Source: Jiella pacifica
GTDB taxonomy: Bacteria > Pseudomonadota > Alphaproteobacteria > Rhizobiales > Rhizobiaceae
Length of the DNA stretch: 64,000 bases
Direction of reading: 5' to 3'
NCBI RefSeq assembly: GCF_010500815.1
Contig: NZ_JAAAMG010000010.1
Coordinates: forward strand, 62,001-126,000
Each line of letters opens with the position of its first letter. The stretch's first letter is position 1. Both the position numbers and the translations under genes were made by a program. This document shows positions 10,007 through 59,035 of this stretch, piece by piece. A model generated the notes under the pieces. It made no database searches and was not told the origin of the DNA. It was given only the letters and a program-made list of their open reading frames with translations.

Positions 10007-11326
10007 CTACCGCGCCGCAGTCTTGGGAAAGAGAGTCGCTCCCGCCGGCCGATTGCGCTGGACGATGTCCGCGTCCTCTTCATCCGGCCCCATGATTTCG
10101 CCGTGATAAGTCGAGGAATGCCGCTCGTCCGGCTCGTCGTAACGCTCGGCGGCCTTCAGCTTCTTCTGGATGCGCAGCGCCCGCATCATCTCTCCGGCGC
10201 TCATGTCGCCCATTTCCAGCTCTTCGCCCTCCTCGCGGCGGATCACGTCCTGGACGATGCACAGGACGAAGATCAGCACCGCCGGCAGAAGATCGATCGA
10301 AATCGCCCCTGCCCAGGACGGCAGGAAGTCGCGGGCATAGCGGATGACCGCCTCTGGCGCCGACAGCGGGGTGAAGCGCAAGGGCTCGACCTTCGGCCGC
10401 GCCAGGATCTCGTCGGCGGCCGTCGCCAGCGCCTGGCTCTGGGTCTTCACCGCCGCCTCGATCGTGCCGACGACGCGGCTCTGGCGATCGCGCAGGTCGG
10501 CGTCGGTGCCGTCGGAGATCGGGGCGATGAAACTGCGGCCGAGATCCTCGGCGGCGCGGCGGACGGCGGGGGCGACCGAGGTCTGCTCGAGCGAGGTGAG
10601 CAGCCCCGACAGCGCCACCGCCTCCTCGCCATAGGCATTCGAGCGATCGGCGACGGGCCCTTGCGAGGAGACCAGCCTGCGCATGGTCGCGAGGTGTTGG
10701 CCGCCCTGTTCGAACAGCGTCTTGACCTGCTGCCGCGAACCCTCGATCTCGGCCTGGAGGCCGGAAAGCTGGCTCGACATCTGGCGGAGAAGCTGCACGA
10801 CCGTCCCGGAGCCCGAAGTTCCGGTGAGGACGCCGGAGCGGGCCTCCTGCTCGGAAAGCCCGGCGAAGCGCTGGGAAGCGAGCTGGATGTCCGGCAGGAG
10901 GCTCTGGGCCGCCAGCGCGTTCTCGTGCGCCTCGTTGAGCTTTTGCTGATATTCTTCGGTGGTGACGGCGAGATGCTGTTCGAGCGCCGCCGAGCCGGCG
11001 AGAGCCGCGGCGTTCAGCCAGGAGGACATGGCGATGATCATCGCCGAGCCGATCGCCATGGCGAGATAGAGCATGCGCCGGCCGCTGCGCACATGCGGCA
11101 TGAAGCGCATCAGGTAGGACCAAAAGGCGTAGATCGCCACCGAGACGGCCGAGGAATAGACGAGAGCGCCGAGGAAGACCGTCGTCTCGTCACCGTCGAG
11201 AAGCTCCCTGACGCCGAGATAGGTGTAGACGCCGCTGGCCAGCGCCAGGACCGACAGGGTGATGCGCGTCGTCGCGTCGAGCCGCGTGACCTGCCCCCTC
11301 AAGGTGTAAGACTGCGATGCACCCAT
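10007..11326 (-). CDS. Conserved membrane protein with central coiled coil, CtrA-box promoter
   Basis: A 439-residue protein I do not recognise by name. Three membrane helices lie in the first 120 residues (ITLSVLALASGVYTYLG, ALVYSSAVSVAIYAFW, MLYLAMAIGSAMIIAM). A helical, Gln/Glu-rich periplasmic or cytosolic region of about 190 residues follows, then another hydrophobic segment (WAGAISIDLLPAVLIFVLCIV) and an acidic cytosolic tail. The layout suggests a structural or signalling membrane protein rather than an enzyme. ATG 11326 is chosen because GTGAGGAGT sits 8 bases before it. A perfect CtrA recognition sequence at 11382-11397 suggests cell-cycle control. Confidence 0.6.
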   Translation of the reverse strand: MGASQSYTLRGQVTRLDATTRITLSVLALASGVYTYLGVRELLDGDETTVFLGALVYSSAVSVAIYAFWSYLMRFMPHVRSGRRMLYLAMAIGSAMIIAMSSWLNAAALAGSAALEQHLAVTTEEYQQKLNEAHENALAAQSLLPDIQLASQRFAGLSEQEARSGVLTGTSGSGTVVQLLRQMSSQLSGLQAEIEGSRQQVKTLFEQGGQHLATMRRLVSSQGPVADRSNAYGEEAVALSGLLTSLEQTSVAPAVRRAAEDLGRSFIAPISDGTDADLRDRQSRVVGTIEAAVKTQSQALATAADEILARPKVEPLRFTPLSAPEAVIRYARDFLPSWAGAISIDLLPAVLIFVLCIVQDVIRREEGEELEMGDMSAGEMMRALRIQKKLKAAERYDEPDERHSSTYHGEIMGPDEEDADIVQRNRPAGATLFPKTAAR

Positions 11327-11381
11327 GAACGCGGGACTCCTCACGGACTGACGGCGAGGCGATCTCGCCCCATCGCATTGC

Positions 11382-11397
11382 GTTAACGGGAGATTAA
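11382..11397 (-). promoter_or_regulatory. CtrA box (TTAA-N7-TTAAC)
   Basis: On the minus strand the sequence is TTAATCTCCCGTTAAC, an exact match to the alphaproteobacterial CtrA consensus. It lies 56 bases before the start codon of the membrane coiled-coil gene, a position suited to activation or repression by the cell-cycle regulator CtrA. Confidence 0.65.
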
Positions 11398-11563
11398 GAC
11401 TTTCCCTCGACTGGGGTAAGTACCGCCCGGCGGATTTCCCGGCGATCGCCAGGACGAAGACGGCTGAGGGTTAACGGCGAAAATTCGATCGATCCGAGGA
11501 AGCCGGCGGAGGGACCGCAGCCCGGCGCCCGATCTGCACCCAGCGCATAGGCGCCGGCTCTTT

Positions 11564-11580
11564 GATAGAAACGCTCTATC
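11564..11580. promoter_or_regulatory. Dyad GATAG-N7-CTATC
   Basis: Short inverted repeat with T-N11-A geometry like LysR-type regulator sites. It lies in the gap between the CtrA box and the small RNA. TATCGATC at 11577-11584 is repeated at 11613-11620. No regulator gene is adjacent, so its role is open. Confidence 0.3.
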
Positions 11581-11652
11581 GATCGTTTGGATATTTCTAT
11601 GTGTTTTCCGTGTATCGATCAAAAATTGCTATCGTCGAAATGCATAGCTGGC

Positions 11653-11673
11653 ATGCCGGATCGGCATTTGATC
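11653..11673 (+). promoter_or_regulatory. LysR-type box abutting a -35 element of the small RNA
   Basis: ATGCCG-GAT-CGGCAT (11653-11667) is a perfect 6-bp dyad with T-N11-A spacing. It is followed at once by TTGATC (11668-11673), which could be a -35, with CTAGGT at 11689-11694 as a poor -10. This geometry would place a LysR-type activator just upstream of RNA polymerase and a transcript start near 11700. Inference only. Confidence 0.4.
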
Positions 11674-11699
11674 CAGCAGCGTGACGAACTAGGTTGGTC

Positions 11700-11809
11700 G
11701 CAGTCGGACGCATCGGCACCTCCTCCCAGTCGATCCGTCTGGCTGTTTCCTCCCATACGGTCTTTCGAGACCACGATTGGCCGGGTTCTTTTGAACCCGG
11801 CTTTTTTTT
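11700..11809 (+). ncRNA. Candidate trans-acting small RNA with anti-Shine-Dalgarno loops (AbcR/alpha-r14-like)
   Basis: About 110 nt with three stem-loops. Stem 1 pairs 11701-10 with 11736-45 and 11712-15 with 11731-34, leaving a 15-nt apical loop that displays CCTCCTCCC (11719-11727), the complement of a Shine-Dalgarno site. The linker before stem 2 shows a second copy, TCCTCCC (11748-11754). Stem 2 is GGTCT-TTCG-AGACC (11759-11772). Stem 3 is an intrinsic terminator with eight T. This is the architecture of the rhizobial trans-acting RNAs of the alpha-r14 and AbcR (alpha-r15) families, which block translation of transporter and other mRNAs with Hfq. The 5' end is inferred; the exact family is not settled. 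Confidence 0.7.
11780..11809 (+). terminator. Intrinsic terminator of the small RNA
   Basis: GCCGGGTTC pairs perfectly with GAACCCGGC around a TTTT loop and is followed by eight T (11802-11809). This is the strongest Rho-independent terminator in the window. It ends no plus-strand protein gene, which is what points to a small RNA upstream. Confidence 0.9.
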
Positions 11810-11929
11810 GGCCTCGACACGACGCCCGGCGGCCGCCTTCGCCGCAGTGCGCAAAGAGGTCGGGACGCGGCCGGCTCCGGAGGGGACGGGGGATCCTGCT
11901 TTGAGAATGTCAGGACCTGGCAAGCGAAA

Positions 11930-11954
11930 GCGGGCGGCCCATGGGACCACCCGC
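11930..11954 (-). terminator. Hairpin after the aminotransferase gene
   Basis: On the minus strand GCGGGTGGTCC pairs with GGGCCGCCCGC, with two G-U wobbles, around a CAT loop, followed by CTTTCGCTT. The wobbles pair only in the minus-strand RNA, so it belongs to the aminotransferase transcript. Confidence 0.55.
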
Positions 11955-11986
11955 CTCTCATTGTCTCGGTCCTTGCGTCGAAGAGA

Positions 11987-14546
<2,560 letters not shown>

Positions 14547-57672: not shown

Positions 57673-58917
57673 TTACTGTCCGAGCCACTCCTCGCGGCGC
57701 GGCACGTCGATCTCGGCGATTTCCTTGATGACCGCCTTGCCGTCGGTGAAGGAGCCGGAGTTGATCGTCACCCTGAGAAGACCGCGATGGTCCTCCGGCG
57801 TCCAGGTCGAGGGCGAGCAGACGCCCTCGAGCCCTTCCGGCACCCAGTCGGTCTTCTGATACATGCCGTCACGGATGTTCTTGCCGGTGATGCCGCCATT
57901 CGCCTTCGCCCACTGCATGGCTTCCTTCATGTAATAGGCCGAACAGATGCCGCGCAGATAATGGTGAGTCGGCCGGTCGCCGACCTGGCCGCCGCCATTC
58001 TCGAGAATCTTCTTGACCAGCCCCATGCCCGGCACGTCGGCCCCGTAGAAGGGCGTCGAGGAAGGGAAGATCAGGTTCTGCGCCTCGGCCGCTTCCACGG
58101 TCTGGTAGTCGCCGGCCCAGGGATTGCCCATATAGGTCGCCTCGACGCCGACCGTGTTGCAGCTCTTGATCAGCGACACGACCGAACCGCCGAGATTGCC
58201 CATATAGACATATTGGGCGCCGGAATCCTTGATCGTCAGGCACTGCGCCTTGAAGTCGCCCGGCGCGAGCGGCACGACGACCGGCTGGGCGACGGTGAAG
58301 CCCAGCTCCTCGGCATAGGACGCGCAGGCCTCTTTCGGCGCATTGGGATAAGGATGGTTGTCGCCGGTGTGGACGAAGGTCGGGTTCTCCGTCCCCTTCT
58401 CCTTGGCGTCCTCGGCGGCCCACTGGACCAGCGCCCGGCAAGCGTCGGAATAGGACGGGCCGTAGAAGAAATTGAAGGGCGCCGGTGCCTTCGTGTTCGC
58501 GTTCTTGCCCTGCGGGTCGGTCAGATGCGCCGAATAGGAGCCGGAGATCGTCGGGATCTCGGCGCGCGCGACGAAGGAGATCAGCGCCTCCGTGTCGGCC
58601 GTGCCCCAGCCCTGCAGGGCGACCATGTCGTTGCCGACCCATTTCTTGAACTGGGCGATCGCTTCCGGCACTTTGTAGGCGTAGTCGACAGTGTCGAGCT
58701 CGACCATCGTGCCATCGATGCCGCCATCGGCGTTAATCTCTTTGAAGGCGTCGGCGACGCCCGGGCCATACTGCTTGCCGACGAAGGACGTCGCGCCGGT
58801 ATAATCGGCGAGATGGCCGACGAGGACGCTGTCATCCTGGGCGAGCGCCGGCGCGCCGGCGATGATGGTGGTGGCCGCGAGCGCAGCCGTCAGGGTCAGT
58901 CTGTGAAGCGTTGCCAT
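57673..58917 (-). CDS. LivJ-type periplasmic binding protein
   Basis: A 414-residue type I periplasmic binding protein with signal peptide LTLTAALAATTIIAGAPALAQ. The mature start, VLVGHLADYTGATSFVGKQYGPGVADAFKEINADGGIDG, and the middle ALISFVARAEIPTISGSYSAHLTDP are of the Peripla_BP_6 class. Members that accompany CoA-ligase genes tend to bind aromatic or other carboxylates rather than amino acids; that assignment is by context. ATG 58917 is set by GGGAGGAATT. Confidence 0.88.
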   Translation of the reverse strand: MATLHRLTLTAALAATTIIAGAPALAQDDSVLVGHLADYTGATSFVGKQYGPGVADAFKEINADGGIDGTMVELDTVDYAYKVPEAIAQFKKWVGNDMVALQGWGTADTEALISFVARAEIPTISGSYSAHLTDPQGKNANTKAPAPFNFFYGPSYSDACRALVQWAAEDAKEKGTENPTFVHTGDNHPYPNAPKEACASYAEELGFTVAQPVVVPLAPGDFKAQCLTIKDSGAQYVYMGNLGGSVVSLIKSCNTVGVEATYMGNPWAGDYQTVEAAEAQNLIFPSSTPFYGADVPGMGLVKKILENGGGQVGDRPTHHYLRGICSAYYMKEAMQWAKANGGITGKNIRDGMYQKTDWVPEGLEGVCSPSTWTPEDHRGLLRVTINSGSFTDGKAVIKEIAEIDVPRREEWLGQ

Positions 58918-59035
58918 TGTCGAATTCCTCCCATTCGCGGACTTTGCGGTGGCTCGATATGCTGACGGTGCCGCGAAGACCGCCGTCATCGGTTGAAGTG
59001 CGCCGGCCCACCCTCCCCGGCGGTCCGGCCATGGC

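Follow-up and report, generated by a model that had tools for sequence, protein, structure and literature searches.

Results

A small RNA gene facing an aminotransferase gene

Between two minus-strand genes of the window, by which we mean the whole 64,000-nt stretch of the Jiella pacifica genome that was analysed, lies a short plus-strand gene for a small RNA (sRNA; Table 1). The computational evidence establishes it as a real, conserved gene, and its expression is to be expected from what holds for the AbcR family. Downstream, across a gap of 177 bp, it faces the convergent aminotransferase gene, which we take to be aatA.

Table 1. Features of the sRNA locus and a candidate pairing site in the window
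Feature	Position	Strand	Basis
sRNA gene, very probably a diverged abcR	11701..11809	+	conservation, ar15 match, alignment, fold, compensatory changes
SL1 hairpin, 11-nt apical loop 11718-11728 displaying aSD1	11702..11744	+	fold
aSD1 in SL1 loop, CCUCCUCCC (DNA CCTCCTCCC)	11719-11727	+	fold, ensemble unpairing
aSD2 in SL1-SL2 linker, GUUUCCUCCC	11745..11754	+	alignment, loci comparison, ensemble unpairing
aSD2 stretch at DNA level, TTTCCTCCC	11746-11754	+	
SL2 hairpin, GGUCU-UUCG-AGACC	11759..11772	+	fold
Intrinsic terminator, 10-pair stem (11779-11802) and T-run	11779..11809	+	scan, fold
Putative VtlR/LsrB box GCAT-N3-TG-N3-T, GCATAGCTGGCAT	11642..11654	+	sequence reading, comparison of loci
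Proposed -35 TTGATC (11668-11673) and -10 TAGGTT (11690-11695)	11668..11695	+	by eye from conservation
Aminotransferase gene (Aminotran_1_2), convergent neighbour marking the abcR locus	11987..13189	-	Pfam, synteny
445-aa gene, no Pfam match, upstream neighbour	10007..11344	-	Pfam scan, carrier comparison
TGGGAGGAA, ribosome site of a Peripla_BP_6 gene (57673-58917), candidate aSD2 pairing partner	58925..58933	-	start codon 58917

Folded alone, positions 11702-11809 (+) reach -46.3 kcal/mol; 200 dinucleotide shuffles average -28.1 (z -5.5), and none of them folded as well. The three hairpins that the initial annotation had described are present in that order, and the RNA is closed, as it had also stated, by a terminator with a T-run. 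The first apical loop displays the anti-Shine-Dalgarno (anti-SD) sequence predicted for it, in 11 nucleotides rather than 15, and the second anti-SD motif was likewise correctly placed in the linker. Every base of the two motifs, aSD1 and aSD2, stays unpaired in 92% or more of the fold ensemble. Of the extent first proposed for the gene, 11640..11809, the 3' end near 11809 stands; the likely 5' end is 11701-11703, and the RNA is thus about 107-109 nt long. In the window CCTCCTCCC by itself is not enriched (one occurrence, 1.18 expected), so that the signal lies in the conserved context and not in the motif alone. At curated cut-offs Rfam finds nothing at the locus, its matches in the window being two tRNAs only. 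The -35 and -10 elements were read by eye because a simple promoter scan of 11340-12000 called no sigma-70 site.

Conservation and distribution

In a DNA search of 61 genomes, 13 proved to carry the sRNA. They comprise all ten genomes of the own genus and 3 of the 27 that represent other genera of the family (three different genera); the 24 genomes from other families gave no match. The loops, whose conservation in relatives was central to the original reading, are invariant in all 13 aligned sequences (CTCCTCCC and CTGTTTCCTCCCA). In this alignment 7 of 24 consensus pairs have changed on both sides, compared with a shuffled mean of 2.4 (0 of 500 as high), a test that favours the structure, as the consensus was derived from the same alignment; 94.9% of alignment cells pair, against 22.5-51.4% with the partners slid. 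Two open reading frames (105 and 121 aa) run across the sRNA, and a protein-coding reading was rejected, together with chance, because indels among the relatives are not multiples of three and the loops are invariant.

Scanning named genomes with a sequence pattern gave 54 matching stretches. The terminator is present in 32 of the 33 titled Jiella, Aurantimonas, Aureimonas, Fulvimarina, Mangrovicella or Consotaella (placement in Aurantimonadaceae was checked for two of these, Jiella and Mangrovicella) and in none of the 21 under other titles. One genome (G084) holds two strong copies, at C31:71128 and C12:149105, scoring 61.9 and 61.5 bits to R1, a model built from the 13 carrier sequences.

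Relationship to the alpha-r15 family

Members of alpha-r15 are described, in the available part of PMC3712013, as having three hairpins, an anti-SD motif in the 5' loop and a 3' terminator, and the Jiella sRNA has this anatomy. The locus is also the best match to the ar15 model (RF02345) in its own genome, spanning model positions 1-112 with 23.8 bits and E 0.028, the next best reaching 15.2 bits. It falls short of the Rfam gathering cut-off of 40 bits, and our claim is therefore one of orthology and not of Rfam membership. With E up to 10, ar15 also matched in 12 of 14 control genomes, never above the cut-off, so that the score alone proves little and E 0.028 is weak by itself.

At E 0.001 canonical ar15 was not detected in any of the 13 carriers, and it was detected in 22 of the 24 non-carrier genomes of the family. 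Among 297 family genomes R1 matched in 122 and ar15 in 226. The two models coincide at 11 or more places (G010, G013, G017, G023, G025, G027, G034, G185, G218, G246 and G275), and they match at different places in G022; matches between the two run in both directions and over full length. The canonical RNA of G173 begins with the same 5' end as the Jiella sRNA (CAGTCGACGGG ... GTCGACTGTTCCCC).

Gene order points the same way on one side of the locus. Of 23 canonical loci, 19 have abcR behind vtlR, on its strand and no more than 1.6 kb away, and 12 have it convergent with aatA at a distance of up to 4.1 kb (up to 410 nt in six of them). These counts cover limited stretches from 23 of 25 ar15-positive genomes, so that some misses may lie outside them. 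The full order trxB-vtlR-abcR-aatA occurs in G022, trxB being named by its sequence. At the Jiella locus the aatA side fits and vtlR is absent: the vtlR orthologue of this genome, 67% identical to that of G022, sits on contig C19, where searches with ar15 and with R1 find no abcR behind it. Across the carriers, aatA lies near the sRNA in 11 of 13 (it was not found in the examined stretches of G001 and G030), and the 445-aa gene adjoins it in all 13.

Proposed promoter and operator

According to the accessible text of PMC8844928, the abcR1 promoter of Sinorhizobium meliloti carries an LsrB box, GCAT-N3-TG-N3-T, at -61 to -49, and PMC7486931, also available in part, proposes the same box in Brucella and Agrobacterium. 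In Jiella GCATAGCTGGCAT lies 59 nt upstream of the model start, in keeping with the position of the AbcR1 box about 60 bp upstream. The operator of the initial annotation was a dyad touching the -35; an operator-like element is indeed conserved, as this box, 13 bp upstream of the -35 and not in contact with it. By reading, 10 of the 13 carriers have the strict box. At 33 named loci of the clade it stands at the expected place in 22, and in 28 when either TG or AG is allowed, against 0.06 (strict) and 0.11 (relaxed) under mononucleotide shuffles. Canonical loci are similar: among the 33 of 37 listed ar15 hits that were examined for linker and box (four were left out), 19 have a relaxed box 61-62 nt ahead of the model start, and in 13 it has the strict form. 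The box and the VtlR orthologue in the genome thus support the suggested control by a LysR-type regulator, presumably VtlR.

VrsA of Agrobacterium tumefaciens, likened here by description, is another sRNA preceded by a VtlR box; unlike the Jiella sRNA, it is located elsewhere and is antisense to a gene (PMC7486931, in the part available). Upstream of the VtlR box in Jiella are GATAGA-N5-TCTATC (11564-11580) and GATC-AAAAATT-GCTATC (11617-11633), and similar GATAG/CTATC pairs recur at the same place in other loci of the genus. Perhaps they form a second operator, or the operator of the divergent 445-aa gene.

A second anti-SD motif, probably rewritten

The sRNA resembles AbcR1 and AbcR2 in its three hairpins, in CUCCUCCC in the SL1 loop, in its terminator, in having a second anti-SD motif between SL1 and SL2, in a VtlR/LsrB box near -60 and in its place beside aatA. 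It differs in that vtlR is not adjacent, its score is under the Rfam cut-off, a single copy was found in its own genome, the SL2 sequence departs from canonical AbcR, and aSD2 reads GUUUCCUCCC instead of the GUUCCCCUC of AbcR1 and AbcR2. For S. meliloti AbcR1/2, the part of PMC8844928 at hand gives aSD1 as CUCCUCCC and aSD2 as UUCCCCUC, within a stretch called ultraconserved, and excerpts of PMC5461406 give GUUCCC as the M2 motif of Brucella AbcR. Neither UUCCCCUC nor GUUCCC is the form found in Jiella, and GUUUCCUCCC is present at all 20 of the model-found clade loci that were read (L088-L107). Six further loci in the same list (L108-L113) have canonical GTTCCCCTC.

MmgR, an sRNA under nitrogen control, contains in the own genome a stretch of ten letters identical to the new aSD2. 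At one locus (L039, in G021, C33 44255-44358), where an ar15 hit of 39.3 bits lies beside vtlR and aatA, the linker reads GTTCCCTCCGAAGG, intermediate between the two forms of aSD2.

Sites before solute-binding-protein genes

Possible targets were sought among 930 genes called, with a crude gene caller, from 1.196 Mb (21%) of the own genome, chosen regardless of targets. The site GGGAGGAA was counted ahead of 7 of 22 solute-binding-protein genes, compared with 11 of the 908 remaining genes (p 4e-8); GGAGG lacking the flanking extension precedes 1 of 22 and 121 of 908. As the 22-gene set had been found partly with query proteins picked by their ribosome site, a blind definition giving 25 genes was used, with which the site precedes 4 of 25 solute-binding-protein genes and 14 of 905 others (p 0.001); a stricter neighbour definition yielded 2 genes only and was useless. 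There was no enrichment of GGGAGGAA before exported proteins other than solute-binding ones (4/166 vs 14/764) or before permease and ATPase genes (1/28), nor of GGGAGGAG, the site expected for aSD1, before solute-binding-protein genes (1/22 vs 6/908). The importers proposed as targets at the outset are accordingly narrowed to their solute-binding proteins, and few such sites lie in the window; there GGGAGGAAA has two occurrences against 0.46 expected, one of them being the complement of the sRNA itself. Duplex energies at the starts of solute-binding-protein genes differ weakly (p 0.065 for aSD1, 0.070 for aSD2), and the sRNA duplexes favour these genes no more than does plain 16S pairing at the same start regions (p 0.043).

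In the whole own genome there are 11 distinct GGGAGGAAAC-ATG sites, including those of three solute-binding proteins and one ABC permease. In 30 clade genomes GGGAGGAAAC-N1-10-ATG has a density of 1.28 per Mb, and in 30 canonical ones the density is 0.94 (rank test p 0.048); measured against the old-seed site, the two sets do not differ significantly (Fisher p 0.061, rank p 0.20). Pfam solute-binding-protein genes are headed by the site at 20 of 48 classified places in the clade, some of which are the same gene in close relatives, and at 8 of 31 in canonical genomes, so that sites of this type favour such genes in both. The classified places were drawn from 187 clade matches (own genome complete, others sampled) and 153 canonical ones, with one locus, L280, dropped. 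A 2x2 design for seed co-evolution failed because the old-seed pattern GAGGGGAAC-N1-10-ATG heads an open reading frame of at least 60 aa at only 41 of 70 sites. Targeting of solute-binding-protein genes by the sRNA is supported by these site counts as a prediction, and the ability of GGGAGGAA sites to pair equally with MmgR, through the same ten letters, counts against assigning them to one sRNA specifically.

Discussion

We consider it very probable that this sRNA is a diverged orthologue of AbcR (alpha-r15), which would be activated by VtlR and would block translation of uptake-system mRNAs through its anti-SD motifs. Anatomy, locus, promoter and distribution carry the case for orthology. 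The initial annotation had named AbcR and alpha-r14 together; two-way covariance-model matches, synteny, the promoter box and the complementary distribution support alpha-r15, at a score below the Rfam cut-off, and alpha-r14 is disfavoured. By analogy with the family, VtlR (LsrB), encoded away from abcR, would bind the box at 11642-11654 and activate transcription from about 11702, yielding an RNA that ends at about 11809 and probably binds Hfq. This RNA would expose CCUCCUCCC at the apex of SL1 and GUUUCCUCCC between SL1 and SL2, and both could pair with ribosome-binding sites of uptake-system mRNAs and repress their translation.

The divergence of the sequence invites other identities. Conceivably, AbcR gave way at the aatA locus to a different sRNA family of the clade, which gained a VtlR box and whose anti-SD motifs are convergent. 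Such motifs do recur among unrelated families, the aSD2 and SL2 sequences are clearly unlike the ar15 consensus, and the ar15 score is under the cut-off. We nevertheless judge a replacement improbable, given that the models match both ways over full length with the elements in the same order, that the box lies at nearly the same distance (59 vs 61-62 nt), and that canonical RNAs, such as that of G173, share the 5' end. It is less probable still that the locus makes no functional RNA, being the terminator of a convergent gene with chance hairpins: a terminator beside a convergent gene is what the locus offers, but invariant loops, compensatory pair changes and an upstream box conserved across genera would be very hard to account for on that reading.

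An alpha-r14 (NfeR1-like) RNA with fewer CCUCCUCCC hairpins would explain the SL1 loop, since CCUCCUCCC is the alpha-r14 loop, and the locus scores 24.6 bits to RF02344. That is far under the cut-off of 58.8, however, and the Jiella sRNA has one such hairpin where RF02344 members have three or more; SmelA075 and SmelA099 display three or four each (PMC3927594, in the part available). A separate tandem alpha-r14 array on C12 reaches 72.4 bits, and locus and promoter are of the abcR type, which makes this identity very unlikely. Equally hard to credit is a diverged second copy of MmgR (suhB, RF00519). The linker does reproduce the MmgR stretch, both RNAs have single-stranded GUUUCCUCCC and a T-rich terminator, and the 25.5 bits to RF00519 are slightly above the ar15 score; they are below the cut-off of 41, MmgR proper is a separate, strong copy on C56 (65.3 bits) that differs in its 5' hairpin and size, and the SL1 hairpin and its aSD loop, like the locus and the box, agree with abcR. 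Two further candidates were rejected: EcpR1, which, according to the portion of PMC4414408 available, has loops UCCGCCGCAUCU and UCCUCG and a gene by divK-pleD, and the other weak Rfam matches at the locus, all under their own cut-offs.

What is new, with the sRNA read as a diverged AbcR, is a clade-wide variant that combines a rewritten second seed with an unlinked regulator gene. Nutrient uptake in rhizobia and their relatives is under the control of AbcR RNAs; by the Rfam cut-off the clade genomes examined seem to be without one, and they appear to carry instead an AbcR with an altered seed and a regulator gene elsewhere. We found no paper on AbcR in Aurantimonadaceae or on sRNA in Jiella in the open-licence literature, and no sRNA of Aurantimonas, Fulvimarina or Aureimonas is among the matches listed there. 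The clade thus presents a natural experiment, the change of an sRNA seed described as ultraconserved in the accessible text of PMC8844928. It also gives reason to widen the ar15 model, and it makes a concrete prediction, namely that solute-binding-protein mRNAs with GGGAGGAA sites would be the chief targets.

A bolder idea, which we hold to be possible and rather doubtful, is that the second seed of AbcR, described as ultraconserved for rhizobia, was rewritten into the MmgR seed in this clade (Jiella, Aurantimonas, Aureimonas, Fulvimarina and allied genera), so that convergence of seeds on a shared GGGAGGAAAC site merged two regulons. Were this so, two sRNAs under different control, by VtlR and by nitrogen, would meet at one site before solute-binding-protein genes, and the merger would sit in the very lineage whose sRNA gene has become separated from the gene of its regulator.

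Related motifs were also seen at other places. The alpha-r14 array consists of five RF02344 matches in about 750 bp (L168-L171 and L174, G000:C12:135550-136296), and a terminator-like hairpin with a TCCTCCC loop (L172, G000:C73:200992-201084, minus strand) gives a weak alpha-r14 match of 30.3 bits.
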